DNA of 58,395 nucleotides from Prevotella sp. GTDB taxonomy: Bacteria; Bacteroidota; Bacteroidia; Bacteroidales; Bacteroidaceae. The DNA lies in assembly GCA_017395215.1 (NCBI GenBank), contig JAFPVW010000199.1, positions 1-58,395 of the forward strand, read 5' to 3'. Below, in pieces: positions 18,350 to 35,574 of this stretch (position 1 is its first letter; each line of letters begins with the position of its first letter). The translations under genes and the position numbers were made by a program. The notes under the pieces were generated by a model. That model did not search any database. It worked only from the letters and a program-made list of their open reading frames with translations, and was not told the origin of the DNA.

Positions 18350-20206
18350 CTACTTAAGTGGCAGGAACCAATTCTTCTCGTCAAGCAGCGAGACGGCGGG
18401 GTGCTTGTAAGCCAGCTTGGCGGCCAGCCACTCACTACCGTAGTTGCCACCATAGAGGGCTGCGCGGTTCTTGTGGCGGGCTATACGGGTAAGGTCGCCG
18501 AAGCGGTTGCCCTCGAAGGCCAGCTCGAGTGCCATCTCGTCGCAGATGAGGTCCTCGACGGCATTGATAGTATCGGCCTTGGTGATACCGACTGGAGAGC
18601 CTTTGGCTGCAAGTTCAGCGAGCTTACGCCCTACAATGGCATTGAACTGATAGGGCGAGAAGGCACCCTGGGTGTAGTAGGTACCACGGCTGTGGATGCC
18701 CCAGTTGTCGTCAAAGATAGCGATGTTCTCAGCCGACAAGAATGGCACTGTCGTCCGCAGCATCTCAACGGTCTCTGGCTGGATGTAACGTCCAGACTCC
18801 AGGTCAGTGCTGTCGCCACGTGCGGTGTAGGTGAGCAAGTCCTCACTGATGCCGTCCTTCAAAATGGCAAAGGCAGCGTCAGGATAGCCCATACGGTTGA
18901 GGGCCTCAGCCAGACGAAGGTAGACGGTGGCCGTGCGGTAGATGGGCACGTTGGCCGAGTTGAACTTACGCATGACTGAGAACGAGGAGTCGTTGCGCGT
19001 GACGGGGTACATGGTGTAGAAGCGGCGGAGGTCGCCAATCTCGGCGGTGCGCACGACGGTAGAGCCGCCGGTGGCAGCTGACGGCGTGTAGTAGTAGTCC
19101 TGAGCGTTGCTGAGGGCGTAGTAGGCCGGCGAGGCGTCAATCTGTCGCTCCAGGAGGTAGCGCTCGTTCGACGAGGCCGAGCCGCTGGTGGTGCTGTAGA
19201 AGTCGTAGCCGAAGTAACGGGGCAGCTCGGTGACGACGCCACGCAGACGGTTGGCGGCCAGTGGGATGTAGGTAACGATGTCGTTGGTGCTGGTGACGTT
19301 GAAGATGGTACCCCACTGGAATCCGGAGAAGGTCGGGTCGAACGACGACGGCATCTTTTCGCGCAGCGAACTCAAAATCCAAATCTCCGTGGGATCAATC
19401 CAGGTCTGGCGAATGGTCCACTGGTTTGTGCGCAGGAAGTTAAAGTAGTAGCGGGCTGCCTGCTCGTACTGATGGGTCTCGAGGAAGAGGTCGCCCAGAA
19501 TGACGTCGACGGGAATCATGGCCCGGCTTGAGACAACGCTCTTCTCCTGCGGGTTCTCGCTGTCGCTACTGTTGAGCACACCGGCAGAGATGTTGCCGTA
19601 GGTCGGCACCGGGGTACCGCTGAAGCGAATCAGTTCGGGAGCCAGTGCGTCGCAGATGCCCTGAATGTCCTTGGTCTCGTGCTGGCTGTTGGCATCGCCA
19701 ATACTGGTCAGCGGGTCGGTGAAGAAGGGCACGGAGCCGTAGTTCTTGGCCAGCTGCAGATAAGCCCATGCACGGACGGCCAGTGCCTCGGCATATTCGG
19801 GAATGGTCACGAGGCGGCTGCCTGTGCGCAACGTCGTATCGCGGTGGGCGATGAAGTAGTTGCAGTTGTTGATGACACGATAGTAGACGTAGGCCGAGTC
19901 ATACTTGTTGGAGGCATCGGCAGAGAAGTCGGCCAGCTGGCGCAGGTCTATCTCAGTATAGCTGTTGGTGGCTGTCAGGTCGCCACGCATCTCACCCACC
20001 ATGACGTACTGGTCGGCCAGCATCTGCAGCCCCTTGAGCATGCCAAGGGTGTAGAACATGGAGTCGGTCTTCTGGTCGAGGGCCGGGTCGAAGATCTGGC
20101 GGTCGCTGTCGGTCTCGAACATGTCGGAGCAGGCTGTGAGAGCTGCGGCACCGCCGCAGCACAGGAGACAGGCGGTGATGAGGGTCTTTATGCTTTTGGT
20201 AATCAT
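18350..20206 (-). CDS. SusD/RagB-family lipoprotein, second pair
   Basis: 618 residues. A lipoprotein signal peptide ends at LTACSD. The body shows helix-rich SusD/RagB features: YVYYRVINNCNYFIAH, then RAWAYLQLAKNYGSVPFF, the tetratricopeptide-like core, and a C-terminal ELAFEGNRFGDLTRIARHK close to the signature RxxELxxEGxRxxDLxR. SusD proteins cap the SusC barrel on the cell surface and bind the ligand. The open frame reaches a TTG at 20215 inside an AATTGA array, but ATG 20206 matches the starts of its relatives. Last gene of the seven-gene operon, 30 bp after its SusC partner. Confidence 0.95.
   Translation of the reverse strand: MITKSIKTLITACLLCCGGAAALTACSDMFETDSDRQIFDPALDQKTDSMFYTLGMLKGLQMLADQYVMVGEMRGDLTATNSYTEIDLRQLADFSADASNKYDSAYVYYRVINNCNYFIAHRDTTLRTGSRLVTIPEYAEALAVRAWAYLQLAKNYGSVPFFTDPLTSIGDANSQHETKDIQGICDALAPELIRFSGTPVPTYGNISAGVLNSSDSENPQEKSVVSSRAMIPVDVILGDLFLETHQYEQAARYYFNFLRTNQWTIRQTWIDPTEIWILSSLREKMPSSFDPTFSGFQWGTIFNVTSTNDIVTYIPLAANRLRGVVTELPRYFGYDFYSTTSGSASSNERYLLERQIDASPAYYALSNAQDYYYTPSAATGGSTVVRTAEIGDLRRFYTMYPVTRNDSSFSVMRKFNSANVPIYRTATVYLRLAEALNRMGYPDAAFAILKDGISEDLLTYTARGDSTDLESGRYIQPETVEMLRTTVPFLSAENIAIFDDNWGIHSRGTYYTQGAFSPYQFNAIVGRKLAELAAKGSPVGITKADTINAVEDLICDEMALELAFEGNRFGDLTRIARHKNRAALYGGNYGSEWLAAKLAYKHPAVSLLDEKNWFLPLK
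20142..20160. repeat. GC palindrome in signal peptide, copy 1
   Basis: GCTGCGG-CACC-GCCGCAGC, in the part of the susD-like gene that codes for the hydrophobic core of the signal peptide. Similarity to the gldL copy extends about 25 bp beyond it. Confidence 0.7.
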
Positions 20207-20236: not shown

Positions 20237-23200
20237 TTAGAGGTTAATCTTAAGTCCGAGGGTGAAGGTACGGCCGAGGGCGATGTTGCCGGCGTCAATA
20301 CCCTGATAGAGCACGGCGTTGGCGACGCTTGCTTCGGGGTCGTTGCCCAAGTAGCGGGTGACGGTCAGGAGGTTGTTGGCCTCTGCCCAGACGCTGAGGC
20401 CCTGGAGCCATGAATAGTTGACGGGTACGCGATAGTTGAGGCGTACTGTCTTCAGCCGCAGGTAGGAGCCATCTTCAATCCAGCGGTCGCTGAAGCGAGA
20501 GTTGCCCATGGGGTCGCCGTAGGTGACACGGGGAATGTCGGTCTGCTGTCCCTCAGCACGCCAGCGATTGGTCATGGCTGTCGTCTGGTTGTAGAAGTTG
20601 CTGCCGCTCTCGAGCAGTGAGCGCTGATAGTTGAAGATATCATTGCCCAGCGAGTAGTTCAGCCCGACGTGCAGGGTGAGGTTCTTCCAGTTGACATTGG
20701 CAAAGATATTACCATAGATGTCGGGGTTGGGGTTGCCGATAATGGTGCGGTCAGCCTCACCGATGATGCCGTCGCCGTTGATGTCGACGAAGCGCACATC
20801 GCCAGCCTTGAAGTTCTGGCGGGCTCCCGTCTCATCAATCAGGTAGAGATAACCTGCCTTGCCTGCAGCGGCAGCTTCCTTGTCGTCGGCAAAGACGCCA
20901 TCGGTCTTGTAGCCGTAGAACATGCCTACGGGCTGGCCGACGATGGTAGCAATATTGTCGGAGCCATAGATGCTGGAAGTATAGCCCTGAGCCGTGGGCT
21001 GACCATTCATATAAATGCGTGTATTGTCGGGCAGGCTCTTTACCTTATTCACATAGTGACCTGCACTTACGCCCAACTCCATATTGAACTGGCGGGTGAC
21101 GATGGGCTTGGCCGTCAGCGTGACTTCGAAGCCCGTATTGTCGAGCGAGCCGCCGTTGCTCCAGTAGTTGTTGATACCTGCCACGGGATTCTCGAACGTC
21201 TTAAGAGTAAGCAGGTTCTTGGTGTGACTCATGTAATAGTCGAAGTCTAAGCCAATGCGGTTGTTCAGGAAGTAAGCCTTCAGGCCAACATTCATCTTGC
21301 CGGTCTGCTCCCAGGTGATACTTTCGTTACCGATATTGTCGAGCAGGGCAGCAGTTGACTTGTACAGGTATTTGGTAACACTGAACGACGTACGGGCGGC
21401 ATTGCCGGCGATGTCATCGTTACCGGAGATGTCGTAGCCGGCCTTCAGAAGCAGGTAGCTGATACCCTTGTTCTTGGGGAACCATGCCTCATTGGTAAGC
21501 ACCCATCCCAGCTGGAGACTGGGGAAGATCCCCCACTTCACACCGGCAATCTTCAGTCCGCCGTCGGCCTCCCTGCCGAAACGGCTGCAACTCTCGACGG
21601 CGAGCATCAACTGAGCGAAATAGCGGTTGCGGAAGTTGTAGTCAACATTGCCGTACCAGGTCATCGAGCGCCAGGAGTCATCGGTACCGGTGGCGTCGAT
21701 GAAGTCCATATCCTTCGATATATTCGGAGTCTTGTCGTTGCCTGCCGACGAATACTGTCCCTCTGGTTCGTTGTCGTCGAATGCGAAGGAGGAGAAGCGG
21801 AAGCCTGCAAAGGCATTGACGAAATGTTCGCGCAACTGACGGCTCCATCCCAGGCGGGTATCGCTCACGACAGCAGTCTCCTTCGAGAACATCGACTTCG
21901 ACATGTTCTGCACGCGACCGATTCCATCGATAAGGAAGGTTGGCATGCCACCTTCCGGGCGATAGTAGCGCTGTGACACGCGGTCGAGCGTGTAGCTGAA
22001 CGTCTCGGTCAGCACAAGGTGGTCGTTGAACTCATAGCGCGGAGCAATGACCGTGTTGAAGTGGGTCATCTCGACGCGGTTCTTGTTGATGGCTTCACCG
22101 TTGGCCAGGAGGGCCGTGGGGTTACCAAGGGTCAGATCCTGGTCGAGCACGGTCAGGTAGTCGTCGGCATCCGAGAGCGTCGACGAGAGCTTGCGCGTTA
22201 CATTATTAAATGTATAGGGATTGAGGAACGGCGACTTGACGAGTGCCAGAAACGTAGGCGACGAGATGGTACCCGTGAGCAGGCTTTCTGGTGCGCCATT
22301 GTCAAAGACATCGCGGTTAACCTTTGTGTACGACATATCGAAGCGGGTGGTGAGCCGGTTGATGATATTAATGTCGGTATTGAAGCGCACGTTCAGACGG
22401 TCGAAACCATTCTTGCGCGCCGTGCTCTTTCCGTCGGTATAGCCTAAGGAGAGGTTGTACATACCCACATCGTCACCACCCTGCACGTTGATGTTGTAGT
22501 TCTGATTGAGAACCGTGTGGTAGACCTCATCTTTCCAATCGGTGTCATTATGGAACTTGGCATAATAGTACTTTGACGGATCGTCAACGAGGAACTTAAA
22601 GGTCTGCGGATCAGTGTAGAGGCTGATGTCGGGGTAAGAGCCCAACATCTCGGAAGCATACACCCTGTACTGTGCGGCATTCATCACTTCTGGCGTACGG
22701 GGTTCGAGGGTGACGCCCACGCCGATGTTAGCATCGATGCGGGTGGCCATGCTGTGTCCGCGCTTGGTTTCGATGAGGATGACACCGGCAGCACCCTTGG
22801 CACCATAGAGAGCTGTGGCATTCTTGAGAACCGTCACTTTGTCAATGTCCTCAGGGTTGATGTTAAGCAGCAAGTTGGTGTAGTCGCCATAGTGCAGCGT
22901 CGAGCGTGTCTGCTGCATGTCCTGCACAACGCCGTCGATAACAATCAACGGCTGCGCATTGGCATTGAGCGAACTAAGTCCACGGACGAACATGGCAGCG
23001 CCGTAGCCCGGGCCGCCCGAACGAGTAATACTGCGGACGTCGGCCCCCATCAGCTCCTCAATGTCGGTCTCGACGGTATGCGAGGTTGTGTTCCTCACAT
23101 TGGCCGTTGCCTCAGCCACGATGTGCGTGGTGTTGTCGTACATCGGCCGGAACTTGTCGCTGAGCATCTCAATGGTGAGCGGCGTGCCTTGACGGCCCAG

Positions 23201-23542
23201 TCCGACATGCTGGCTCATAAACTCTGGAGCATGTACATAGAGTGCCGTGGCAAACGTCGGGACCTTGATGACGAACGTGCCGTCCTCCTCGGTCATGGCC
23301 GTGTAGTTCTTATCGTTCAGCGCCTGTATCATGACACCTGCCAAGGGTTTCTTGGTGGCGGCATCAATGCACTGACCCTTGACCTCGACGGTTGGGTAAG
23401 TCGGAATCTTGACCACCTTCTTCTTGGGGGCGACCACGATTTCATCGTCGTCGACGTCTTCATCCTGTGCGTACGCAGGCATACCCAAGCAGAGCATGCT
23501 GAGAATGGAGAAATAAAGAATATGTTGTCTTTTCATTTTCAT
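20237..23542 (-). CDS. SusC/RagA-family TonB-dependent transporter, second pair
   Basis: 1101 residues. Signal peptide (MKMKRQHILYFSILSMLCLG), an unusual acidic then Lys-rich stretch (residues about 27-48), a carboxypeptidase-D regulatory-like domain (VEVKGQCIDAATKKPLAGV), then the plug with DVRSITRSGGPGYGAAMFVR and PLIVIDGVVQD, and a 22-strand-type barrel ending TFTLGLKINL. SusC proteins import ligands across the outer membrane using TonB energy. It lies 19 bp after the third fasciclin gene and 30 bp before its SusD partner. No CAZyme accompanies this pair, so the substrate is not indicated. Confidence 0.96.
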   Translation of the reverse strand: MKMKRQHILYFSILSMLCLGMPAYAQDEDVDDDEIVVAPKKKVVKIPTYPTVEVKGQCIDAATKKPLAGVMIQALNDKNYTAMTEEDGTFVIKVPTFATALYVHAPEFMSQHVGLGRQGTPLTIEMLSDKFRPMYDNTTHIVAEATANVRNTTSHTVETDIEELMGADVRSITRSGGPGYGAAMFVRGLSSLNANAQPLIVIDGVVQDMQQTRSTLHYGDYTNLLLNINPEDIDKVTVLKNATALYGAKGAAGVILIETKRGHSMATRIDANIGVGVTLEPRTPEVMNAAQYRVYASEMLGSYPDISLYTDPQTFKFLVDDPSKYYYAKFHNDTDWKDEVYHTVLNQNYNINVQGGDDVGMYNLSLGYTDGKSTARKNGFDRLNVRFNTDINIINRLTTRFDMSYTKVNRDVFDNGAPESLLTGTISSPTFLALVKSPFLNPYTFNNVTRKLSSTLSDADDYLTVLDQDLTLGNPTALLANGEAINKNRVEMTHFNTVIAPRYEFNDHLVLTETFSYTLDRVSQRYYRPEGGMPTFLIDGIGRVQNMSKSMFSKETAVVSDTRLGWSRQLREHFVNAFAGFRFSSFAFDDNEPEGQYSSAGNDKTPNISKDMDFIDATGTDDSWRSMTWYGNVDYNFRNRYFAQLMLAVESCSRFGREADGGLKIAGVKWGIFPSLQLGWVLTNEAWFPKNKGISYLLLKAGYDISGNDDIAGNAARTSFSVTKYLYKSTAALLDNIGNESITWEQTGKMNVGLKAYFLNNRIGLDFDYYMSHTKNLLTLKTFENPVAGINNYWSNGGSLDNTGFEVTLTAKPIVTRQFNMELGVSAGHYVNKVKSLPDNTRIYMNGQPTAQGYTSSIYGSDNIATIVGQPVGMFYGYKTDGVFADDKEAAAAGKAGYLYLIDETGARQNFKAGDVRFVDINGDGIIGEADRTIIGNPNPDIYGNIFANVNWKNLTLHVGLNYSLGNDIFNYQRSLLESGSNFYNQTTAMTNRWRAEGQQTDIPRVTYGDPMGNSRFSDRWIEDGSYLRLKTVRLNYRVPVNYSWLQGLSVWAEANNLLTVTRYLGNDPEASVANAVLYQGIDAGNIALGRTFTLGLKINL

Positions 23543-23561: not shown

Positions 23562-25307
23562 TTAATAGATGCCTTTGTCGTATTTGTAGTCAGGATGCAG
23601 CTTGAGATAGTCGTCAAGCTCCTTCGGACGGAGGATGAGACAGTCTATGCGCAGGTTGCGGTCGTAGTTGGCTCGTTCCCTTGAAGTGACAGCACTGTTA
23701 ATCCTCAGGTAGGGATAGTAGTCGCCCGTGCCGTAATAGGATATCGGGAAGGTGAAGTCGCCCAGATAGATGGTATCGACCTGCGCCGAGTCGCTGACAA
23801 ACGCGCTCTCAGCCACCCAGCTGCGGTCGCCGTCCTGATTCTTGCCAGAGGCATCGGCAAAGCCCATTGTCGCCGAGAAGCGGTAAGGCTTGGTGGCATT
23901 TCTGGGATTGGTAATGTTGGCGGGAACCGTGACCACGTAGATGCTGTAAGTGGTTGAGCGTATTTCCGGGAAGTAGAAGACGACGCCGGGGTTTGTGCTC
24001 TGACTGATAGGCTGCACGTCGAGATAGGCATTTGACGAGAGGTGACCCGTCACCTCAGGATTCTGCGTACCGGGAGTCACATAGATGCGCTGCGGCTCGT
24101 TCTCGTTGGCCACATTGACTGCGCTGGCGATGACGGCTCTGTTCTCAGCCTCTATCCGCAGTTCCGGATTCCAGACTGTCCACGTGCGCATGCGCAGGCT
24201 GTCGTCAGTCAGCCATACCCAGCCATTGCTCTTCGCAATGCGCCGTGTGTTCTCCAACAGGCGTGACGCATCCTCGGAATAGAGTTTCACAGTAAGGGTG
24301 CTATAGAGCGAGTCACAATGGAAGTTTGTTGCGGCATCAGGCGCATCCAGCTGTCGGTTGTCGTACATGTTGTTGTTGAAGAAGAGGCCAGCCGTGAGCA
24401 TCTGGTTGACGATAGAGTCCTGGAGATATTTGACATCCCTGATCTTGACGTCAACCTTCTTTCTTTCGGTTGTCGACGTATTCTCCATGAACTCAAACGA
24501 AGGCACGTAGTGGAAATACTTGCTGATGGTTGCCTTCGCCCTGTTCCATGCCTCGTTGGTAGGCACAATCATGGAGTAGTTGCTGTCCTCACGGTTGATG
24601 TAGGCAAAATAGCGAAGGAAGAGGTCGTTGTGCTCGTCGAAGATGGAGTCGAGATACGTAATCTCGCCATTCAGTGTCGGACCTTGCACACTCTTCTGTT
24701 CATTGAGTTTCCTGACATCATAGCTGTGAATATACGCGCTGATGGAGTCGATGGGGTATTCATAGTTGTTCAGCGACTCGTAGATGTTCTGCACAAACGG
24801 TATCTTTCCCTTCAGCGTATGGATGGTACCGTTGCCCGTTGCCACGTTAGCCTTGTCGATGCCTATGCCCTGAATGACATAGCTGCCGGCGCCGCTGAAG
24901 AGCATCAGTTTCTCGTTCAGCGTGTAAACCCTTTGGTCGACAGCGCCGGAGGCAGGATAGTTGTTGCGGGCAATGTGGTTCTCGACAAACTCCTTCACCA
25001 GGCGGTCGCTACTCAGCGAGGCGAGTGTCTCATAATCAAAGGTACCGTTGACTGGAGCCCAGACGGTGTAAGTCTGAGTGGCGTTGAGCACTTCGTCATA
25101 GCCTGCCTTCTTGAGCAGGGAGGCAAACTGCGACAAGTTCTCATTCTGCAAAATGTTCTGCCAGAGGGTGGCATGCTGCGTGTCGAGCAGCGACGTGTCG
25201 GCATCGTAGTGGTCGTTCCAGTCGGCGCAGGCCGCGAGTGCGAGAGCTGCGGCAGCGCTGCAGCACAGCGAACATTTCGCGATGTGTTTCTTTATATTGG
25301 TAATCAT
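23562..25307 (-). CDS. Fasciclin-domain lipoprotein 3
   Basis: 581 residues. Lipoprotein signal with two Cys in the core and the likely lipid-anchored Cys in LAACADW. The first FAS1 domain is clear: H1 motif TYTVWAPVNGTFDYETL at about 80 and H2-like NGTIHTLKGKI at about 158. A second H1-like motif is SMIVPTNEAWNRAK at about 245. The last 200 residues have no FAS1 features and look like a beta-sandwich ending in IDCLILRPKELDDY. FAS1 domains mediate adhesion or binding of proteins and glycans; the role beside SusCD systems is unknown. Starts 18 bp after fasciclin gene 2, 19 bp before susC. Confidence 0.88.
   Translation of the reverse strand: MITNIKKHIAKCSLCCSAAAALALAACADWNDHYDADTSLLDTQHATLWQNILQNENLSQFASLLKKAGYDEVLNATQTYTVWAPVNGTFDYETLASLSSDRLVKEFVENHIARNNYPASGAVDQRVYTLNEKLMLFSGAGSYVIQGIGIDKANVATGNGTIHTLKGKIPFVQNIYESLNNYEYPIDSISAYIHSYDVRKLNEQKSVQGPTLNGEITYLDSIFDEHNDLFLRYFAYINREDSNYSMIVPTNEAWNRAKATISKYFHYVPSFEFMENTSTTERKKVDVKIRDVKYLQDSIVNQMLTAGLFFNNNMYDNRQLDAPDAATNFHCDSLYSTLTVKLYSEDASRLLENTRRIAKSNGWVWLTDDSLRMRTWTVWNPELRIEAENRAVIASAVNVANENEPQRIYVTPGTQNPEVTGHLSSNAYLDVQPISQSTNPGVVFYFPEIRSTTYSIYVVTVPANITNPRNATKPYRFSATMGFADASGKNQDGDRSWVAESAFVSDSAQVDTIYLGDFTFPISYYGTGDYYPYLRINSAVTSRERANYDRNLRIDCLILRPKELDDYLKLHPDYKYDKGIY
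25246..25264. repeat. GC palindrome in signal peptide, copy 2
   Basis: GCTGCGGCAGCGCTGCAGC within the signal peptide region of fasciclin gene 3, a diverged copy of the shared element. Confidence 0.55.
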
Positions 25308-25325: not shown

Positions 25326-27407
25326 TTAGTACATATCTTCCACGTAGCGGGTGTTATTGTAGACGTTCTCGGGGCAGAACTCTATGTAGTCGAGGTGGAA
25401 CTCTCCCTGCGGGTTCTCAATAACGCTCTTGAAGCGGAGCCAGTATTCGCCCTGCTTGAACTCCTGACGGGCAATGATGCGGCGCAGGTCCTTGGGGTTG
25501 TTGCGGGCATAGTTGCCGGAGTTCACGCCGACGGTATAATAAAGAGGTCCGCGCATGTAGCCGAGGTTACGCATATTGGCATCGCTCTCAATACCCTTGT
25601 CGTCAAGGCGGGTCCAGTCGCACCAGCCCGTGTAGACGTCAGGCGTCAGATTGCTGTTGTTGGCCGGAATGATACGCATGTCGAGCGGGATGTCGAGGGC
25701 TTGCATGGCCGAGAGATCCGAGCTGTTGCCGATGTAGAACTGCAGCATGCCTCGCTCGTTCTCAGCCGTGTAGCCGAGACGCAGCTCGTAAGTGCCGTCG
25801 GGCACCGGCGGCAGACGCATGGCGAAGTCGTAGTTACCCATACAGTTGAACTCGTCCTCCTGGTAGTTACTCCAGCTGCTGCCCTGTCCGGGGAAGTAGT
25901 AGAGGCGGGTGTCCTCACCATTGTAGATGGCCATATTCTTAAAGAAGCGCGGTGGGAAGCGGATGTAGTCGCAGTTGGCGTGGCGACCGTCGGTGCCCTG
26001 CTTTCCGCCGTTCAGGGCCTTCACCGTTGAGTAGGCAATACCCCTGAAGGAGTTGGACATCATTTCGAAGCAAATGGCCGTATCGTCAATTCTAATGCGC
26101 TCGTTCAGGGCTCCCCTCGGCACGCGCTCTTCGTAGGCGAGCGTGCTCTTCAGCGGATGGATGTAGCCGTTGACGGCAGCCACCTGCTCCCTGATGCCCT
26201 GCAGCTCGATGCCCTCGAAGAGCACGGCGTGCATAGCCGGTGTTCCCAGCTCGGCCACCATGTCGGTGAGCGAGTTGTTGGCTGTCCAGCGGTTCAGCAT
26301 CAGCTTACCGTTGTTGCGGGTTACCTTCACCAGTGTGTAGGGCAGAAGGGTCTCGTAGTATTCTACCAGCGTCACCTTCGATATCTGATTGTGCGAGTTG
26401 ACCAGCTTCTCGTAAGGAATCTTGTACTCCAGGACATGGTAGCGCACGAACATGCTCAGCGTGTTCCAGGGGTTCTTGAAGTCGTTGGCGGTACTGATGG
26501 CGATGTGGTTGTTGCGCGCATAGTCGTACCATCCCGTCCCCTGTGCCGCACAGTTACCGTAGACGCTGTCGGCATACTCCTTGAGCTGGTCGATGTTGGT
26601 AATGCCACGGCTGGCCAGGGTCTCGTCGGTCTCGGCAAAGATGGTGTAGCCCTGTTCGCACTTGTCGGGTGTGTAGAAGCCACGCTTGTTGTCGACGGCA
26701 TCGAAGTCGGTTGTGCTGATGTTAGTCAGCGAGTCGGCCAGTCCCGTCAGCTTCAAGGCCTGGGTGAAGAGGGTGTACTTGTCGGGACGGTTCTCCATCT
26801 CACCGGCCACGAGCATGTTCGAGCGGCGTATCACCTGGTCGATCTCGTGCAGGACGCCGTTCTCCAGCTCGTTGTCCATGCTCGTCACCTTCGAGTATCG
26901 GCTGATGAGCACTGAGCCTGACACCGAGTCGATAGAGGTGTTGATGTCGCGTCCGAGCATGGTCTTGATGGTCAGACCGTTACCCATGTTTACGCCCATC
27001 ACCTCAGAGCCTAACAGATGGAACAAGGCGATGTCCTTGCACAGCGAGTCGGTCAGTCCCTCCAACCCGCGCCCGGTCATGCCGTTATGGGGCAGCTCCT
27101 TGTTCACGGGGTCGTCATAGAGGCTGTCAATATACTCGATGACAGCATCATTCGAAGGTGCGAAGCAGGTGTAGGTGCCGTAGGCCGAAAGAATCTTGTC
27201 GTAGCCGATACGTGACAGGATGTAGTTGAAGTTGCTGAACTTCTCGCTGCGGTTCACGAGATAGTCCTCGATGGTCTCACCCGTGAACGTATAGAGGTTC
27301 GACTCGTCGATGTCCTCCTTACAGGAGGTGAGCGGCGAGAGGGCTGCGACGGCCCCGCAGCACAACCAGCAGGCGGTTATGATATGTTTGATGCTTTTGG
27401 TAATCAT
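25326..27407 (-). CDS. Fasciclin-domain lipoprotein 2
   Basis: 693 residues. Lipoprotein signal ending LTSCKED. Two FAS1 domains are recognisable: H1 motifs TYTCFAPSNDAVIEYID (about 80) and GYTIFAETDETL (about 260), with H2-like NGVLHEIDQVI (about 185) and NGYIHPLKSTL (about 415). The C-terminal 260 residues form a separate module with many aromatic residues (YNGEDTRLYYFPGQGSSW) and end in LDYIEFCPENVYNN, the look of a galactose-binding-like beta-sandwich. ATG 27407 is chosen over a TTG nine bases upstream in the repeat array. Positioned between the first SusD and fasciclin gene 3, where surface glycan-binding proteins usually sit in polysaccharide loci. Confidence 0.88.
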   Translation of the reverse strand: MITKSIKHIITACWLCCGAVAALSPLTSCKEDIDESNLYTFTGETIEDYLVNRSEKFSNFNYILSRIGYDKILSAYGTYTCFAPSNDAVIEYIDSLYDDPVNKELPHNGMTGRGLEGLTDSLCKDIALFHLLGSEVMGVNMGNGLTIKTMLGRDINTSIDSVSGSVLISRYSKVTSMDNELENGVLHEIDQVIRRSNMLVAGEMENRPDKYTLFTQALKLTGLADSLTNISTTDFDAVDNKRGFYTPDKCEQGYTIFAETDETLASRGITNIDQLKEYADSVYGNCAAQGTGWYDYARNNHIAISTANDFKNPWNTLSMFVRYHVLEYKIPYEKLVNSHNQISKVTLVEYYETLLPYTLVKVTRNNGKLMLNRWTANNSLTDMVAELGTPAMHAVLFEGIELQGIREQVAAVNGYIHPLKSTLAYEERVPRGALNERIRIDDTAICFEMMSNSFRGIAYSTVKALNGGKQGTDGRHANCDYIRFPPRFFKNMAIYNGEDTRLYYFPGQGSSWSNYQEDEFNCMGNYDFAMRLPPVPDGTYELRLGYTAENERGMLQFYIGNSSDLSAMQALDIPLDMRIIPANNSNLTPDVYTGWCDWTRLDDKGIESDANMRNLGYMRGPLYYTVGVNSGNYARNNPKDLRRIIARQEFKQGEYWLRFKSVIENPQGEFHLDYIEFCPENVYNNTRYVEDMY
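27343..27361. repeat. GC palindrome in signal peptide, copy 3
   Basis: GCTGCGACGGCCCCGCAGC, the most diverged copy, in the signal peptide of fasciclin gene 2. Confidence 0.5.
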
Positions 27408-27446
27408 AATTCTCAATTATCAATTTTCAATTCTCAATTCTCAATT
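27408..27446. repeat. AATTGA-type repeat array at the susD/fasciclin-2 junction
   Basis: Five units of TTGAGAA/TTGAAAA/TTGATAA type on the minus strand. The SusD stop codon (TGA of AATTGA) is supplied by the first unit and the last unit abuts the next ATG. Confidence 0.65.
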
Positions 27447-29225
27447 CTTTGAAGTAGACTTCTCCTGGATGTAGACGGGATTCTGGTTCAAGAGGCTGTT
27501 CACCTTCACCTCACTCTCCTGTATAGGCCAGTAGAGGTAGGGCTCGCTCTTCATCTTGAACGACACGGCGTCGCCGCCACCGTCGTTACTGTACTTCCTG
27601 ATGACCATGGTGAGCATGGGCTGGTAGAGTTCAGGCCAGGCTCCAGTGTCGGCCAGACGCTGGCTGATGTTGACACCGGTCATGTGGCGGTAGCAGTAGC
27701 GCATGAGGTCGAACCAGCGCTTGCCTTCGAAGCAGAGCTCACGCTCACGCTCGGCGAGCACGAGCAGTTCCATGTCTTCCTTCGACTTGAAGTTCTCGAA
27801 CTTCAGCGTGTCGGTGGCATTCTTGGCCATCGAGCGCTTGTTGACGGCCTGCACCAAGTCAAAGGCGCGCTTCAGCGTCACGCGGTCGCTGTCGCTGGCA
27901 GCCGTCTCCACCAGGGCCTCGGCCTTCATCAGCATGACGTCGGTCAGGCGGTAGACAATCCAGTTCTGGCGGAACTCGTCGAACGAGCGGCTGTTCGACT
28001 TTGCCGGGCCCACCGTCAGCGCTGTGAGGTTCGTGGCAATGTCGTCAGTGGCCACCATCTTGCGGATGGCGAGCTGCTGGGCCTCCTCGTTGTTGGCATC
28101 GAAGACGTTGTTCCAGAAGCGGTAGTCGTTCTTCGACATGTAAACCTTCTGGGCATCGGCAGTGTTGGCGTTGGTAGCCACGCTGTTGAAAAGCTGCGAG
28201 GCCATCAGGATGCTGGTCTGCTGGTGGTTGTCTTTATTGCCTGACTCGTAGTAGTAGTTCTCTAAAGCCGTGTTCGAGTTGTTGCGGCCGTTGTACTGCC
28301 ACTCCAGGATGCTCTCGTGGGAGTTTCCGCGATTGGTGCCGAAGATGGTGGAGTAGGCCATGTCGCCGTCTTCAAGATGGTAGCGGTCCTCCTCCTTGCT
28401 GGTGATGTCTAACTCCTGATAGAGCTTGTAGTAGGCATCCTTGGCATTGATGACCGAGTCGCTGAAGGCGATGGCCTCCTGGTAGTCGCCGGCACTGTGG
28501 GTCATGGCGGCGCGCCACAGGTAGATGTCGGCCATCAGGGCGTGGACGGCGTCGCGGGTCATGTAGCCCCAGTTGCGCCAGTCGTTGCGTCCGTAGGAGC
28601 CTGACTTCATGATGTACTTCCGGGCCTCGTCCAGGTCTTCTAAGCAATGCTGTAGCACTACGTCGGGGGCACTCTGCGGCATGGCCTCCACCTGACTGTC
28701 GTCCTCGTAGGAGCGGGTCGAGTAGGGGACGTCGCGGAAAGCACGCACCAGGTAGAAGTAGCACAGTGAACGCAGGGCCAGCATCTGGGCCCGCACCACC
28801 TGATAGTCGCCCTCGGTGAACTCCGGGTCTTCGATCATGACGTCGGGGGCGTGGTTCAGCACGACGTTGCAGTTGTTGATAACCTTATAGAAGTTGCTCC
28901 ACGAGGTGTACCTGTTCGTGGGCAGCAGGATGACAGCACTGATGTTGTCGAGCGTGTTGTCGTTATAGTCGCCCAGCTTCACCAGCTCGTCGGAGCGGTA
29001 GGCGCCCCACATGATGGCGCGTTCCTGAATGCTGTAGTCTATCATGCTCAGGTAGCAGCCGTCCACCATCTGGTCAACGTCCGCCTTCTTCTTCCAGAAG
29101 TCTTCGGCAACGATGCGGTCCGTCGGGTAGATGGTCAGGAAGTCGTTGCAGGCCGTGAAGGCTGCGGCACCGCCGCAACACAGCAAACAAGCGATGAGGG
29201 TATGTTTTATGCTTTTGGTAATCAT
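27441..29225 (-). CDS. SusD/RagB-family lipoprotein, first pair
   Basis: 594 residues with lipoprotein signal FTACNDF. SusD hallmarks are present: FLTIYPTDRIVAEDFW near the mature N-terminus, FYKVINNCNVVLNHAP, ALRSLCYFYLVRAFRDVPYS, and a C-terminal LLVLAERERELCFEGKRWFDLMRY, an almost perfect family signature. It should pair with the SusC gene that lies 43 bp upstream. The gene begins with ATGATTACCAAAAGCATAAA, nearly the same 20 bases as the other susD and fasciclin gene 2. Its stop codon lies in a repeat array. Ligand unknown. Confidence 0.96.
   Translation of the reverse strand: MITKSIKHTLIACLLCCGGAAAFTACNDFLTIYPTDRIVAEDFWKKKADVDQMVDGCYLSMIDYSIQERAIMWGAYRSDELVKLGDYNDNTLDNISAVILLPTNRYTSWSNFYKVINNCNVVLNHAPDVMIEDPEFTEGDYQVVRAQMLALRSLCYFYLVRAFRDVPYSTRSYEDDSQVEAMPQSAPDVVLQHCLEDLDEARKYIMKSGSYGRNDWRNWGYMTRDAVHALMADIYLWRAAMTHSAGDYQEAIAFSDSVINAKDAYYKLYQELDITSKEEDRYHLEDGDMAYSTIFGTNRGNSHESILEWQYNGRNNSNTALENYYYESGNKDNHQQTSILMASQLFNSVATNANTADAQKVYMSKNDYRFWNNVFDANNEEAQQLAIRKMVATDDIATNLTALTVGPAKSNSRSFDEFRQNWIVYRLTDVMLMKAEALVETAASDSDRVTLKRAFDLVQAVNKRSMAKNATDTLKFENFKSKEDMELLVLAERERELCFEGKRWFDLMRYCYRHMTGVNISQRLADTGAWPELYQPMLTMVIRKYSNDGGGDAVSFKMKSEPYLYWPIQESEVKVNSLLNQNPVYIQEKSTSKN
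29161..29179. repeat. GC palindrome in signal peptide, copy 4
   Basis: GCTGCGGCACCGCCGCAAC, differing from copy 1 at one base, in the signal peptide of the first susD-like gene. Confidence 0.65.
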
Positions 29226-29268: not shown

Positions 29269-32200
29269 TTAGAATCCCACTTGAATGTTCAGCGTAACCG
29301 ACTTGCTTCGCGGTGTCTGAGAGTTGTCGTAGGCAATGCCCCACGAACCGGGAGAGTGCTCCGGGTCTGTACCGCTGTACTTGCTCCAGCAGAACAGGTT
29401 CTGGCCGGAGATACTTGTCGTCAGACGGTTCAGGCCGATAGATTTCAGCATCTTCTTCTTGAAGTTATAAGAAAGCTGAATGTAGCTCATACGGACGAAC
29501 GAGGCATCCTCGACGTAGCGGTCACTGCCGAGCCAGTTGTAGCCCGTGTCGAACATAGCGCGCGGAATCTGCGTCACGTCGCCGTTCTTGCGCCAGCGCC
29601 AGTTCACGGCCGAGCTTTGGTTGTAGGCATTGAACATCTCCTCGAGCCCCATCTTGGCCGAGTTCACAATCTTGATGCCCTGACGGTAGCTGAAGCTGGT
29701 GCGCAGCGACCATCCGTCGTACTGCAGGTTCACACCGAAGCCACCGTTGAGGTGGGGGTTCGAGTTGCCTAAGTAGACGATGTCGAGCGAGTTGATCTGG
29801 CCGTCGTTGTTCACGTCGTCGTAGATGGCGTCGCCACCCTGGAACTTATACGTCGAGCTGCCGTCGTCGAAGTTGTAGACCTGGCGGATGGGGTCGCCGT
29901 TGGCGTCCATCATGACGTGGCCCTCGTTGTCGATGGCAACAGGGGCGGTCTTGCCCTTGGCCAGGAAGTCGTTGTTGATGAAGTTCTGCAGCTGTTCGCC
30001 GGTCCAGCCGTTGCTCTCCTTCATGTTGAGCAGATATTCATAGGTGTACTGGTAGACGCCCTTATAGCGCAGTCCGTAGATAGAGCCGAGGGGGTTGCCC
30101 TTCTGAATGCGGTTCAGGTACTGTCCGCGCTTGCTGGGGTCCCATTCGCCGTTGATGCTCTCGAGCACGCTCTCGTCCATCTCGACAATCTCGTTGAAGT
30201 TCTGCGAGATGTTGAAGTTGGCACTGAGTGAGAACTTGCCGATGTTGATAATACGGTTGGCCGATACGTTCAGTTCCCAACCCTTGTTGGTCATCTCGCC
30301 GACGTTTGCCCACGACAGTGAGCTGAAGCCTGTCGACGACGGTATGCGGACGCCCGACATCAGCAGGTCCTTCGTCCGCTTGAAGTAGTAGTTGAAGTCA
30401 CCCGTCAGCTTGCCGTCGAAGAAGCCGAAGTCGCCACCGAGGTTCAGCTGCGACGTGCGCTCCCACTTCAGGTTGTTCAGCTGCAGGCCCTCAAGATAGG
30501 TCACGCTGTGCTTGTCGGCCACGCTACCATAGATGCCGTTCGTGGCATACTTGGAGTACTGCAGGTATTGCGAGCCGGGCTGGCGTCCCACGATACCCCA
30601 TGAGGCACGGAAGGCCAGCATCGAGAGCGTCGGCTTGAGTTTCTCCATGAACGGCTCGTCGGAGATGATCCACTTGGCCGAGAGGCCCGGGAACCAGCCC
30701 CACTTCTTGGTGTCGCCGAACTTCGTGGTACCGTCAGCACGCAGCGACGGGTCCAGCACGTAGCGTCCCTTGTAGGCGAAGTGGCCGGTATAGACCATCG
30801 ACATGGAGCGCCACTGTCCGTTGCCGGTGCTCATGTCCTCGACGTTGGTATCGACGGTGGGCGACGTCGTTCCGTTAGGTGCGTTGCGGTTTACCACGCG
30901 CTGGTTGTTGTCGTTGCCGCTGGTCAGCTCCCACTTGCCGAGCATCTGGATTTTGATGTCCTGATTGTTGAAGTAGGGAACAAAGGTCAGCTGGTGGCGG
31001 GTTGTAAAGGCCAGCGAGTTGTAGTCATATACCTCCGAGCGGTTATAGTTGCCATCCTCCCAGCCTTGGGTCGACAGCGAGCCGGGCCAATACTTGGGCT
31101 CACTCTTCGAGAAGATGTCCATGTAGACCAGACCGACGTAGTTCAGCTGCGTGGCCGAGTCGTCCTTGCTCATCAGGTAGTAGTCGAGGCGGAACTCAGG
31201 CGAGATACGGTAGGTCTTCTCGTTGCGCCAGGCCTGTTCGGCTATGGCGACAGGGTTACCCAGACTGCGGATGGCCGACAACTGTCTCGACGATGTTCCT
31301 GCCAACGACGAACCGACATCGTTAGAGGTACCCTCAGGCAGCATGATATAGAATTCATTGGTGTCGTGGCCGTTGGCATCCTGACGATAGACGGCCATGT
31401 TGGGCGACAGCTTCTGCGAACGGCCCAGAATGTTGTCATCGTAGTTGCGCAGGTTGGCCGTATAGGTCAGCGGGAAGGTGGTGCGGAACGTGATGCGGTC
31501 CGACACGAAGTAGTCGAGTGCCAGTTTCGTGGTGAAGCGGTCGAGCTTTTGCTTGATGATGGTACCCGTCTGGTGGTCGTAACCGGCCGAGACGCGGAAG
31601 TTGGCCTTCTCGCCACCACCGGTAAGCGTCAGGTAGTGGTACTGGCTCCAGCCGGTCTGCTGCACCTCCTTCACCCAGTCGGTGTTGTTGTTCCAGTTCT
31701 CGAACTCAGCCCACGAGCGGTTGTAGTTGATCTCGTTGATGTTGGTCGTTGCCGTGGCGCTCTGGGCGGGGTTGTAGTACATCTCCTTCAGCATCATGGT
31801 GTAGTCGTCACCGTTCAGCAGGTTGTAGCCCTTGGGCTGCCACGATGCCTGGACGCGCAGTGAGTAGTCAACACGAGTGGCACCGCGGGCACCACGCTTG
31901 GTGCGGATCTGGATGACACCGTTTGCACCACGCGATCCCCATACGGCTGTGGCAGCGGCATCCTTCAGCACCTGGATATCCTCGATGTCGGAGGGGTTCA
32001 CCGACAGCAGCGAGGCGTAGGTCTCTTCGTTGGCGTTCTGGAAGTCGAAGTTCTCGTCGGGATTGTCGAAGATGTTGCCGTCGACGACGATGAGCGGTTC
32101 GGCCGAGCCGTTGATACTGGTCACACCACGCAGGCGCATGGTCGTTCCGGCACCGAGGTTACCCGAGTTGGCCACGATGTCGAGACCGGCAATCTGGCCC

Positions 32201-32670
32201 TGCAGGGCTTCGTCGGCCGACGTGAAGGCCAGACCCTCGACCTCCTTCATGTTAAACGTCTGGGCGGCCACCGACACCTCGCGTTCGGGGATGGCCAGGC
32301 CGCCCTGGTTGAACTTACGCTTGGCAGTGATGGTCACCTCCTTGATCTGGGTGGCATCCTGCAGCTTGATGTCGAAGCGTGTACGTGTGCCGATGGGCAG
32401 TATCTGCGTCTTGTAGCCCACGTACGATATCTTCAGCTTGTTCTTGGCATTCTTGACGGCCATCGAGAAGTTACCGTTCAAGTCGGTCTGCGTGAAGGAG
32501 ACGTTACGGTTGTTACCGTCTACCTCGACGACGTTACACATCATCACCGGCCCGAAGGCGTCGCTGACGGTACCCGAGATACGGGCCTCCTGGGCGAGGC
32601 AATTGACAACGAACAATTGACAACTGACAATTACCAATCCCAATATTCTGTATAGTCTTTTACTAATCAT
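29269..32670 (-). CDS. SusC/RagA-family TonB-dependent transporter, first pair
   Basis: 1133 residues from ATG 32670; an in-frame TTG nine bases earlier is part of a repeat array. After the signal peptide (ending VVNCLAQ) comes a carboxypeptidase-D regulatory-like domain (ARISGTVSDAFGPVMMCNV), then the plug domain with LQGQIAGLDIVANSGNLGAG, PLIVVDGNIFDN and the SusC signature DIEDIQVLKDAAATAVWGS, then the barrel, which ends SVTLNIQVGF. It is the first transporter of the operon and directly follows the largest fasciclin lipoprotein; its start region lies inside the repeat that also holds the fasciclin stop codon. Ligand unknown. Confidence 0.97.
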   Translation of the reverse strand: MISKRLYRILGLVIVSCQLFVVNCLAQEARISGTVSDAFGPVMMCNVVEVDGNNRNVSFTQTDLNGNFSMAVKNAKNKLKISYVGYKTQILPIGTRTRFDIKLQDATQIKEVTITAKRKFNQGGLAIPEREVSVAAQTFNMKEVEGLAFTSADEALQGQIAGLDIVANSGNLGAGTTMRLRGVTSINGSAEPLIVVDGNIFDNPDENFDFQNANEETYASLLSVNPSDIEDIQVLKDAAATAVWGSRGANGVIQIRTKRGARGATRVDYSLRVQASWQPKGYNLLNGDDYTMMLKEMYYNPAQSATATTNINEINYNRSWAEFENWNNNTDWVKEVQQTGWSQYHYLTLTGGGEKANFRVSAGYDHQTGTIIKQKLDRFTTKLALDYFVSDRITFRTTFPLTYTANLRNYDDNILGRSQKLSPNMAVYRQDANGHDTNEFYIMLPEGTSNDVGSSLAGTSSRQLSAIRSLGNPVAIAEQAWRNEKTYRISPEFRLDYYLMSKDDSATQLNYVGLVYMDIFSKSEPKYWPGSLSTQGWEDGNYNRSEVYDYNSLAFTTRHQLTFVPYFNNQDIKIQMLGKWELTSGNDNNQRVVNRNAPNGTTSPTVDTNVEDMSTGNGQWRSMSMVYTGHFAYKGRYVLDPSLRADGTTKFGDTKKWGWFPGLSAKWIISDEPFMEKLKPTLSMLAFRASWGIVGRQPGSQYLQYSKYATNGIYGSVADKHSVTYLEGLQLNNLKWERTSQLNLGGDFGFFDGKLTGDFNYYFKRTKDLLMSGVRIPSSTGFSSLSWANVGEMTNKGWELNVSANRIINIGKFSLSANFNISQNFNEIVEMDESVLESINGEWDPSKRGQYLNRIQKGNPLGSIYGLRYKGVYQYTYEYLLNMKESNGWTGEQLQNFINNDFLAKGKTAPVAIDNEGHVMMDANGDPIRQVYNFDDGSSTYKFQGGDAIYDDVNNDGQINSLDIVYLGNSNPHLNGGFGVNLQYDGWSLRTSFSYRQGIKIVNSAKMGLEEMFNAYNQSSAVNWRWRKNGDVTQIPRAMFDTGYNWLGSDRYVEDASFVRMSYIQLSYNFKKKMLKSIGLNRLTTSISGQNLFCWSKYSGTDPEHSPGSWGIAYDNSQTPRSKSVTLNIQVGF

Positions 32671-32702
32671 AATTCTCAATTATCAATTCTCAGTTCTCAA
32701 TT
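32671..32702. repeat. AATTGA-type repeat array at the fasciclin-1/susC junction
   Basis: Units TTGAGAA, CTGAGAA, TTGATAA, TTGAGAA on the minus strand. They encode the last residues of fasciclin 1 (ELRTEN), its TGA stop, and the leader of susC. Confidence 0.65.
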
Positions 32703-35574
32703 CATTGTCGTATCTCTTATATAAATAGGTGTCGAACTGCCTGCGGTATTCCTGCAGCCGCTGACGGGAACCGCTGCCGGTCCAGGCCGCATCGTAGCGG
32801 TCGGTATCCTTGTGCGTGCAGAACGGCGTGCTGACCTCGTGGACGACGGCGAACGACGACGTCGAAATGGCCTTCTTGCGGCTGTCGATGACGAAGTCGC
32901 GAGCCATCTGGTTGACCATCTTCGAGCCGTCGGCAGCGTCAACGACGATCTCCTGTCCGCGGATGTCCTTCACCGTGATGCGGCCAGAGCCGCCCGTGAT
33001 GGTCAGCTTCTCGCGGATACCCAGTGAGTCAGAGCAGGCCGTCGGATAGATACCCTCATCGATGGTGTTGTCGGCATAGACTGAGTTGTCCTGGAAGTGG
33101 TAGCGGATGAAGGCGTTGATCTCCTCGACCATTGCCAGCGCCTTGTCGCGGGCAGCCTGCACCTCGGGGCTGATGTTGCCACCGGCCTTCTCGCGGTCGA
33201 GCTGCTCGGCATACTGGTCGTAGATGACCTTGATGTCGCTCCAGCGCGGCAGTCCGCGCTCGTAGGCTTTCCGCATCGCCTCGTTGTTGGGGGCGTAGAC
33301 GGTGTAGTTATACGAGTTGAAGTAGTTCACGTTGTCGGTCAGTCCGCCCTTGGCGGCGAATGTGTGGTAGGCCTCCATGCGCTTCTTCTTGGTGACGGGG
33401 TTCACCTCCACCAGCTTGTCGCTGGCAAATTCCATGATGACATCCATGTCGAAGTCGGTACAGAGACTCATGAACTCCGAGTATCTCGAGTCGTTCTCCA
33501 GCACGTCAAGCACCGAGCGGTGGGGGCCCTGCACGACGTGGTCAATGGCGTAGGCCACACCGTTGGCCTGCTTGTAGACCTGCGTAACGGCCGACGACGG
33601 CGTGGCGCCCTCAATCTGCGAGCCGCTCTTCACGCTGTTGCTGGCAGCGTCGAAGAGGACGGTGCCGCCGTGCTTCGTCTTGTAGTAATTGTTGCTGCCG
33701 AGGGTCTCGCCGCTCTTCAGCACCACGGTGTGGTAGTTCAGGATGTCGACAAACTGCGAGCGGAACTGGTCGGCCGACACACGGCCGATGGAGTCGGCGG
33801 GCGTCGTACCCACGGTGCCCGTCTCCTTGTCGTACTTCCAGGCCGAGCAGTAGACGTAGGGCGTCTTCGGCTGGTAATAGAACTTCAGGGCGCGCGGCTG
33901 GTCGGTGTTCAGACTGGCCGGGTCGACGTAGTAGCGCTCGAAGGCGTCGTCCGTCGGGATGAAGAAGGCGTAGTTGGCGCTCATGGCCAGCAGGTAGGCG
34001 TAGTAGTTCAGGTTCAGGGCCAGCGTGGTGCGGTGCTTACCGTCGTTCACGGCCTCGTTCATGACGCGCATGTTCGAGCTCAGCGTCACGGGTGCCGAGA
34101 CGGCAATCAGCGATGGTGGAGCAAACATGCGGTTCAGCATGTAGGCCACGCCGTTGTTGGCAATCTTCACGTCGAACGAGCCGTTCTCATTGCGGTTCAG
34201 CACGTCGAGCGACAGTCCCATCGGGTCGTTGGCCTCGTCCATGACGCGGTTGAACTTCGAGGGTACCGTTCCCACGAACGAGCTCTTCATCAGGTTGGCG
34301 ACGAGCTGCTGCACGTTCTGCAGGGGGATGGAGTCGATGTTCTCGGGCAGGTTCTCAATGGTGTTGGGCTTCTTGCCGAAAGCGTTGATCAGGAACTCAC
34401 CGGCACCGCTCGGCAGGAAGTAGTCCTGCAGGGCCTTGTCCGTCGGCACGAACATGGCTGCGATGTCCTTGCTCGAGTTCTCGTTGGTGCCGCTGTTGTA
34501 GTTGTTCCATCCCGGGTCGTAGGGCAGCACGTACTGCGCCTGTGTTCCGTTCGGGTCGGTCAGGAGCGTACCGCCCTGCGAGCGCTGGCTCATGTAGCGC
34601 TTCTGGAAGATGGAGTCGATCAGCGGCAGGTTGTTGGCTGTGGCGTAGTCGTTATAGTTCTTCGTCGTCGCAGCGTCGTAATACGGTGCGCTGAAGCGGT
34701 CGAGCATACGGCTGAAGAGGTTGCTCTCACCATTGTTGCGGATGACCTCGGCCAGGTTGCCCGGCGGCACGAGCACGTCCTCCATCTGGTGGATGTAGCC
34801 GTTCTTGCAGGTCACGTCGGCACAGATAATCTTGTTGCGGAAGATGTAGGCCGACTTCTCCTCGGCGTTGTACGGTGTACCCGTCACCACCTCGAAGTCG
34901 CTGTTCTCCTCGCGCGTCTTGATGTTGTTTGTGGTCATCTGCTCCTCGGTGAAGTGCACCATCATCGGGCGCGTGGCGTCCATCACCATGTGGATGCCGC
35001 GGTCGTAGTACTTCTCCCAGTAGGGGTTGTTCACGGGCATGTCCTGCCGTCCGCGCAGCCGGGTGATGGTGTCGATGACGTTGGCACCCGTCGTGTGCTT
35101 CAGCGCCTGGCCAGGTGTCACGGCGGTGGCACCGTCCGAGATGTTCGACAGCATCTCCACCAGCAGTGCGTTGTCAAGCATCGAGGCGTAGAGCAGCTGG
35201 CGCTTCATGGCGTCGGTCAGCTGACTGTAGTTCCTGACCCCCCACGGGTTGTTGGCATAGAAGCGGTCGAAGGCCTCATCGTTGGCCGGGAACACGGTCT
35301 TCGAGCCTGTCTTCGACAGAGTCTCGGCGTAGCCCAGGTCGTCAATCAGCCGCAGGTAGTTGTTGAAGGTACCCTTCAGCACGTTACCGTTCTCGCCTTG
35401 CAGGTTCTCCGGGTTCTTCATGGCATCATAGATACTGCCACCCAGCCACGACGGGTAGTTGCCCTCGTCGTCCAGGTCGTAGTCATCCTTGCATGCCGTG
35501 AACCCACCACAAATTGCAGCCAGGCACAGTCCCATATAGACGCTCCTGGCTTTCTCAATCAAGCGGTAATTCAT
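32683..35574 (-). CDS. Fasciclin-domain lipoprotein 1 (four FAS1-like domains)
   Basis: 963 residues, first gene of the operon. Lipoprotein signal ends GGFTACKDD. Four FAS1 H1 motifs can be read in order: TVFPANDEAFDRFY (about 95), MFVPTDKALQDYF (about 370), FFIPTDDAFERYY (about 550) and TVYAPNNEAMRKAY (about 790). H2-like motifs NGYIHQMEDVL, NGVAYMLNRMF and NGVAYAIDHVV follow the first three. The first domain carries a long insertion between its H1 and H2 motifs. The protein is expected on the outer-membrane surface. FAS1 repeats elsewhere serve adhesion, but no function is established beside SusCD. A canonical promoter lies upstream, so this gene leads the 17-kb transcription unit. Confidence 0.9.
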   Translation of the reverse strand: MNYRLIEKARSVYMGLCLAAICGGFTACKDDYDLDDEGNYPSWLGGSIYDAMKNPENLQGENGNVLKGTFNNYLRLIDDLGYAETLSKTGSKTVFPANDEAFDRFYANNPWGVRNYSQLTDAMKRQLLYASMLDNALLVEMLSNISDGATAVTPGQALKHTTGANVIDTITRLRGRQDMPVNNPYWEKYYDRGIHMVMDATRPMMVHFTEEQMTTNNIKTREENSDFEVVTGTPYNAEEKSAYIFRNKIICADVTCKNGYIHQMEDVLVPPGNLAEVIRNNGESNLFSRMLDRFSAPYYDAATTKNYNDYATANNLPLIDSIFQKRYMSQRSQGGTLLTDPNGTQAQYVLPYDPGWNNYNSGTNENSSKDIAAMFVPTDKALQDYFLPSGAGEFLINAFGKKPNTIENLPENIDSIPLQNVQQLVANLMKSSFVGTVPSKFNRVMDEANDPMGLSLDVLNRNENGSFDVKIANNGVAYMLNRMFAPPSLIAVSAPVTLSSNMRVMNEAVNDGKHRTTLALNLNYYAYLLAMSANYAFFIPTDDAFERYYVDPASLNTDQPRALKFYYQPKTPYVYCSAWKYDKETGTVGTTPADSIGRVSADQFRSQFVDILNYHTVVLKSGETLGSNNYYKTKHGGTVLFDAASNSVKSGSQIEGATPSSAVTQVYKQANGVAYAIDHVVQGPHRSVLDVLENDSRYSEFMSLCTDFDMDVIMEFASDKLVEVNPVTKKKRMEAYHTFAAKGGLTDNVNYFNSYNYTVYAPNNEAMRKAYERGLPRWSDIKVIYDQYAEQLDREKAGGNISPEVQAARDKALAMVEEINAFIRYHFQDNSVYADNTIDEGIYPTACSDSLGIREKLTITGGSGRITVKDIRGQEIVVDAADGSKMVNQMARDFVIDSRKKAISTSSFAVVHEVSTPFCTHKDTDRYDAAWTGSGSRQRLQEYRRQFDTYLYKRYDNELRTEN

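Follow-up and report, generated by a model that had tools for sequence, protein, structure and literature searches.

Two SusC/SusD pairs and three FAS1 lipoproteins in one Prevotella operon: probably a copy of a conserved polysaccharide-uptake core

The stretch considered here (the window: the whole 58,395 nucleotides [nt] of contig JAFPVW010000199.1, assembly GCA_017395215.1, from a Prevotella sp.) carries seven genes on its minus strand, running from 35574 to 18350. They encode two pairs of SusC/SusD-type uptake proteins (SusCD) and three lipoproteins with FAS1 (fasciclin) domains. An original prediction, made from the letters alone, had proposed this composition and order; all open reading frames (ORFs) lie where it put them, on the minus strand, and the Pfam and NCBIfam profiles used to assign gene domains agree with it. 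In order of transcription, with lengths in amino acids (aa) and distances in base pairs (bp), the features are as follows.

35633..35666, minus strand: promoter-like site TTTG-N22-TAACTTTG, 58 bp 5' of the first start codon
32683..35574, minus strand: FAS1 lipoprotein A, first gene (963 aa; Fasciclin 3.2e-22, two stretches)
29269..32679, minus strand: SusC1, TonB-dependent transporter (1136 aa; TIGR04056 4.1e-202)
27441..29225, minus strand: SusD1 lipoprotein (594 aa; SusD_RagB 2.6e-26)
25326..27416, minus strand: FAS1 lipoprotein B (696 aa; Fasciclin 1.2e-16, one stretch)
23562..25307, minus strand: FAS1 lipoprotein C (581 aa; Fasciclin 2.5e-15, one stretch)
20237..23542, minus strand: SusC2 (1101 aa; TIGR04056 5.9e-173)
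18350..20215, minus strand: SusD2, a divergent SusD, last gene (621 aa; SusD_RagB 1.3e-12)

Counted from the longest starts, the intergenic gaps are, in order, 3, 43, 24, 18, 19 and 21 bp. The predicted 12–43 bp was right as to their shortness, although the measured range is 3–43 bp; 12 bp fits a later start of SusC1. The pattern TTTG-N17-23-TAnnTTTG, which we take to be the Bacteroidota promoter consensus, has a single full match (35666-35633) on the minus strand of 18001-36000, ahead of gene A, in agreement with the one promoter seen earlier, and among relatives it was found in none of 145 upstream stretches tested for the other six genes. The single match fits one transcription unit for all seven genes without proving it, and both complexes would probably be made together, as had been proposed. 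A sigma-70 scan, a method unsuited to this phylum, gave 20 sites against 8.9 expected from shuffles, many of them in repeated leaders. Rfam models gave nothing at gathering score on 17000-41000, and SusC2 DNA had no match in a plasmid collection.

The arrangement is not chance. Co-occurrence of FAS1 lipoproteins with SusC/D, which had been suggested as a check, proved strongly positive. All eight Fasciclin matches in the genome fall within four loci, the window and contigs C96, C34 and C23, and the latter three hold the same seven genes as the window, making four cassettes. When 60 genomes were searched with protein A, 14 gave matches (the genome itself included; 13 strong), all of the same genus, with up to four cassettes per genome. 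Thirty of the 33 protein A rows were examined (G021:C227, G022:C48 and G024 being left out), and the full seven genes stand on one strand and in one order in 29 of these 30 cassettes (24/25 and 5/5). The sole exception is truncated where its contig ends, and among the 29 one carries a SusC2 with a broken frame.

The cassette also extends well beyond the genus. Within the family, a protein A profile has matches, some of them weak, in 212 of the 301 genomes sampled, spread over 18 of 30 genera; phylum-wide, 25 of 395 sampled genomes match (own included), those outside the family over only partial length. Nine regions outside the family were examined, from 8 of the 24 matching genomes other than our own, and eight hold the complete set, co-directional and identically ordered (seven genomes, two other families of the class); since they were chosen mostly as the strongest matches, 8/9 is neither a random sample nor a frequency. 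The ninth, in G559, has one FAS1 protein and no SusCD. Against profiles built from the genus, the outside SusC1 proteins score 903–983 bits and the SusC2 proteins 788–873 bits. Common descent is the simplest reading of these distant cassettes, with transfer as an alternative.

From a collection of named loci the best 80, those nearest the window, were kept. Nearly all come from Prevotella-type or other Bacteroidales assemblies, many of rumen or gut origin, and they include Hoylesella saccharolytica and Xylanibacter rodentium. In the DNA available, 57 of the 80 read FA-C1-D1-FB-FC-C2 (F, FAS1 lipoprotein; C, SusC; D, SusD), 15 are shorter prefixes, and 8 deviate through a split, extra or missing call. 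The notion of a unique oddity is rejected by the matches across genus, named loci and family.

Two observations on the architecture may be recorded here. A repeated leader of about 117 nt spans the gap, the start codon and the signal-peptide coding part of several operon genes (copies at 20123-20239, 27324-27440 and 29142-29258; partial copies at 25221-25315 and 32657-32703). It has 21 matches genome-wide, several inside the other cassettes, and may spread by recombination between gene starts. On the contig that carries named loci L098 (G755:C114) and L192, 28 kb separate two SusD2 genes, and genes for another protein A, SusC1 and SusD1 fall in that interval; these are apparently two tandem cassettes. 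As for the 828-codon open frame opposite protein A (33097-35583), it is probably a mere shadow of the coding strand.

Judged by protein distances, the cassette evolves as a unit. For all 21 pairs of cassette proteins the distances are correlated (0.912–0.967; 23 loci, leaving out the cut G013_C80, G023_C15 with its frame-broken SusC2, and five loci fetched later), and the observed value was reached in 0 of 2000 permutations for any pair. A tree of 36 concatenated cassettes divides the genus set into four groups: W, which holds the window, Ib, one with C96 and one with C34. Four nodes have support below 0.95, all inside groups or in the outgroup. Clade labels of the named loci follow the best BLAST seed, not the tree, and one of the 80 has no label; because these loci are the ones nearest the window, they include no member of the C96 and C34 groups.

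Lipobox-like matches occur in 22 of 25 protein A family members and in 22–23 members of each of the five lipoprotein types, against 5/25 for SusC1 and 2/24 for SusC2. Protein A had been called a four-FAS1 protein: it is a FAS1 lipoprotein whose family profile matches periostin/TGFBIp, while the number four is unproven, Pfam giving two stretches. Protein B, predicted with two FAS1 domains, indeed models that way (predicted structure, mean confidence pLDDT 82; residues 46-430 TGFBIp-like), but a C-terminal sandwich resembling carbohydrate-binding modules (CBMs) had been overlooked; residues 437-687 resemble xanthan-lyase, MiXBM, CBM4 and CBM35 modules. Protein C, taken as a one-FAS1 protein, has a single Pfam stretch but models as two FAS1-like folds (pLDDT 84), followed by a sandwich (378-565) like MiXBM, CBM35 and CBM6. 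In both B and C the predicted FAS1 region aligns with TGFBIp and periostin. Profile searches for their solved relatives returned FAS1 proteins and one chance-level TPR row, and an hhalign comparison of their C-terminal domains with each other was weak (probability 7.9). On these models, the CBM-like domains of B and C would bind sugar, and the FAS1 domains would form a scaffold on lipoproteins placed at the cell surface. A role for the FAS1 proteins as free adhesins was rejected on the cassette context and the CBM-like domains of B and C.

The two SusCs had been described as not being close copies, and at 25% identity they form two distinct uptake pairs; SusD1 and SusD2 share 32% over 180 aa. 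Among solved chains, the SusC homolog 8aa4 is best for both SusC1 (323 bits) and SusC2 (295 bits), followed by 5t3r or 6zlt; 8aa4 and 5t3r presumably belong to glycan systems. RagA scores lower (130 bits for SusC1, 140 for SusC2), as does BT2264 (106 and 79 bits). The two SusCs may divide the labor between fragments, or, as had been suggested, serve two ligands or two stages.

Further indications of substrate come from the enzymes encoded beside related cassettes. Nine of 55 PL11 rhamnogalacturonan lyase genes in 12 genomes lie within 10 kb of the 30 cassettes against 0.95 expected (by locus, six against 0.95, five of the six in Ib), with positions taken as midpoints, fragments merged by eye and an expectation that presumes independent genes, which clustering violates. 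Among the named loci, PL11 is found in 21 of 52 Ib loci against 0 of 27 W loci (flank up to 10 kb upstream; Fisher 3e-5); locus L145 of Xylanibacter rodentium is one of the Ib loci with PL11. Downstream proteins at the C23 locus read as GH115 and PL4 from the group tally and their sequence. At three loci of the C96 group (G000_C96, G009_C13 and G022_C18), separate genes for a cyclomaltodextrinase, a pullulanase-like GH13 and a GH97 make up a Sus-like starch set. Pectin or rhamnose genes stand near four of the eight cassettes outside the family: in G607_C9 a pectate lyase, matched in a search of the Protein Data Bank (PDB), starts about 150 bp after the cassette (the same ORF has no row for PF00544); RhaD and RhaT lie within 10 kb of G389_C1 and G607_C13; and G363_C2 has two GH28 genes within 10 kb, plus relatives of the GH115 and PL4 proteins. 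These neighbors point to pectin as a likely ancestral substrate. Regulators of the hybrid two-component system (HTCS) type were matched in the available flanks of 7 of the 30 same-genus loci, six within 10 kb.

Some flank proteins stand apart. A protein of about 1150 aa lies upstream of three W cassettes (L106:6381-9890, with relatives in L102 and L104); it has only a sub-threshold Pfam row in the one member scanned, reads by eye as a helical toroid followed by a sandwich, and is possibly an undescribed lyase. At L103:5509-8106, between cassette and GH2, is an 865-aa leucine-rich-repeat protein with a dockerin-like end that the window does not have; such ends recur in flank proteins of relatives L190 and L103.

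For the window copy, the claim that there is no hydrolase is true of the operon, which holds no carbohydrate-active enzyme, but several lie within 14 kb. Upstream, a GH2 gene starts at a distance of 1.3 kb and is followed by GH5-GH43 and GH3; downstream, after several other genes, GH43, GH10 and GH67 lie 5.7–13.6 kb away.

36870..40838, minus strand: GH2 enzyme with F5/8 type C domain, upstream neighbor outside the operon
41012..44713, plus strand: GH5-GH43 two-enzyme protein
44804..47194, minus strand: GH3 enzyme
4744-6711, plus strand: GH67, in a neighboring xylan-type set
9072-10505, plus strand: MFS_2, same set
10453-11601, plus strand: GH10, same set
11469-12617, plus strand: GH43, same set
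6914-8923, minus strand: SASA esterase, amid the xylan-type set (4744..12617)

The substrate of the window copy is most likely a polysaccharide of plant cell walls; that it is a xylan- or arabinose-rich polymer is a guess, somewhat likelier to be wrong than right. A secreted-looking protein of about 1060 aa stands upstream and co-directional at 10 of 24 W loci by clustering (11 of 27 by tblastn), with members in L092, L094, L095, L099, L102, L104, L106, L107, L128, L157 and L048:5161-8340; the two members scanned had no Pfam match. Within the window, 36063-48148 is 97.6–99.8% identical in its GH2/GH5-GH43/GH3 block to L210-L212, and within the block a small gene pair (about 36100-36720) looks HicAB-like by eye. 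Beyond the block are Type IX secretion genes (47217-53295; porP/sprF, a gldK-like gene with FGE domain, gldM and gldN), and a CBM77 protein with a dockerin type I domain lies at 26-1834.

We consider it probable that the operon is one copy of a conserved, enzyme-free polysaccharide-uptake core built of two SusCD pairs and FAS1-CBM lipoproteins, and Prevotella-like and related bacteria very probably use the cassette to bind and take up plant polysaccharides, for example pectin and starch. The FAS1 proteins take the place of surface binding proteins, and the enzymes would come from elsewhere, both as originally proposed. The three lipoproteins would stand on the cell surface, their FAS1 domains serving as scaffold and the CBM-like sandwiches of B and C gripping the polymer. 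It would be cut by enzymes from adjacent or distant genes, enzyme genes being seen near relatives, and the two SusC-SusD pairs would import the products with TonB energy, probably as two kinds of fragment or parts of one polymer. The ancestral substrate was probably a rhamnogalacturonan-type pectin, some paralogues having perhaps shifted later to starch and others.

Loci for polysaccharide use are generally portrayed as mixtures that change quickly. A single order kept in 37 of the 39 loci examined, from three families, where the two transporters were never seen apart, suggests a physical machine, not a loose set. A bolder form of this idea can be offered tentatively: the seven proteins may make one fixed outer-membrane assembly, with two non-equivalent SusCD barrels, FAS1 stalks bridging them and CBM heads, which would predate the family split, have arisen for rhamnogalacturonan-type pectin, have passed down as a whole, and have been turned to starch and other polymers through changes in its CBM heads and SusD lids.

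Several observations weigh against an uptake core for plant polysaccharides. The full promoter pattern was present at only 5 of 24 first genes with enough upstream sequence and absent at 19. Both SusCD pairs are present in all 37 complete loci examined, but the loci were all picked through protein A, so that any SusCD pairs of these types without FAS1 genes would have been missed. The sandwich fold predicted for B and C is no proof of sugar binding, and Cry-toxin and laminin domains are also among its structural matches. Near the cassettes of G377, G558 and G697 the searches made revealed no gene recognizable as related to pectin or rhamnose, and near that of G506 a possible pectin acetylesterase was recognized only by eye. 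Nearer to the window, PL11 was found at none of the 27 named loci and none of the four genus-set loci of clade W, and a PL11/pectin link for the window's own clade was rejected on this basis. Its xylan-type neighbors are missing from most orthologues, and flanks vary; compared with the closest relative, L103, the GH2/GH5-43/GH3 block has 97.6% DNA identity against 84.5% for the cassette, and was thus maybe recently exchanged. Finally, no HTCS or sigma/anti-sigma regulator was found among the 28 window ORFs scanned.

Other readings fit the evidence less well. The pairs could take up different substrates independently and have nothing but the operon in common, as the low identity between the two SusCs and between the two SusDs would allow, and as an ordinary tandem of SusCD pairs in the Segatella xylan locus illustrates (in an excerpt of PMC11784079). 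Yet a single order, with three lipoproteins set among the pairs, is kept in three families, distances of one pair track those of the other (r 0.923–0.955 between members of pair 1 and pair 2), and, among the matches listed, at least 63 of 76 strong SusD2 matches (23 genomes) have a SusD1-like match 8–13 kb upstream; we regard independence as rather unlikely.

FAS1 domains are adhesion modules in animals and some bacteria. It had been proposed that such domains here might bind a protein, glycoprotein or cell wall surface, and in an adhesion-coupled system the FAS1 proteins would bind a protein, glycoprotein or other cells and keep the bacterium on a surface, uptake being secondary. The resemblance of B and C to TGFBIp and periostin is in line with this, and an excerpt of PMC10199937 interprets strong transcription of a FAS1 gene in the mussel symbiont Urechidicola as a sign of adhesion. 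The CBM-like ends of B and C, SusC matches above RagA, and the pectin and starch enzymes next to relatives weaken the proposal, and the FAS1 genes are interleaved with two SusCD pairs at every complete locus examined. Adhesion as the primary function is improbable, although binding to a plant cell wall could be adhesion and glycan capture at once. An importer of peptides or other non-glycans, as SusCD pairs can be (for example RagAB) and as a peptidase-bearing protein near one orthologue (L191) might hint, is very improbable given that SusC1 and SusC2 match 8aa4 and 5t3r above RagA or BT2264 and that the enzyme neighbors of relatives are carbohydrate-active.

With a function for the cassette, many proteins in which only a FAS1 domain is recognized could be interpreted, and one could test whether Prevotella-like bacteria depend for starch and pectin use on loci unlike the Bacteroides models. 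In the literature searched, whose scope excluded subscription papers and preprints, no description of this gene set was found; "fasciclin" together with SusC and SusD was found only in PMC10199937, PMC11784079 not matching. A term search of the FAS1 review PMC6032426 gave no whole-word "Bacteroidetes" or "Sus". One FAS1 domain protein is labelled in a cellulose/hemicellulose-like, SusD-bearing locus of Flavobacteriaceae (PMC4891872); the section with the Fig. 6 legend does not discuss that protein and describes no seven-gene organization.

Comparison with known systems places the cassette among, yet apart from, SusCD-type polysaccharide utilization loci. It shares with them SusC/SusD pairs, lipoproteins of predicted carbohydrate-binding fold and, near several relatives, enzymes and HTCS regulators; it differs in its two dissimilar pairs, three FAS1 lipoproteins, enzyme-free operon and single order in three families. 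The archetypal Sus system is susRABCDEFG, a single SusCD followed by SusE, SusF and the amylase SusG. One cassette clade adjoins a comparable set (GH13 cyclomaltodextrinase, pullulanase-like GH13 and GH97), but FAS1-CBM proteins replace SusE/SusF, there are two SusCD pairs, and no amylase is in the operon. Xus-type xylan loci have two contiguous SusCD pairs, whereas the cassette pairs are separated by two FAS1 lipoproteins and a third leads the operon. The tandem loci of Prevotella/Segatella resemble the window copy in having two pairs per locus and xylan-type enzymes nearby, and Segatella copri combines such a tandem pair for xylan with an incomplete starch system (both from an excerpt of PMC11784079). 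Periostin, TGFBIp, fasciclin I and MPT70 share the FAS1 fold, but the cassette proteins are lipoproteins of a transporter operon, B and C with CBM-like ends. RagAB is unlike it in that RagA is not the closest solved chain (130–140 bits against 295–323 for 8aa4). SusCD uptake itself is known; the cassette would be a glycan-uptake core of this kind, conserved as a block, in which two pairs travel together with FAS1-CBM lipoproteins.
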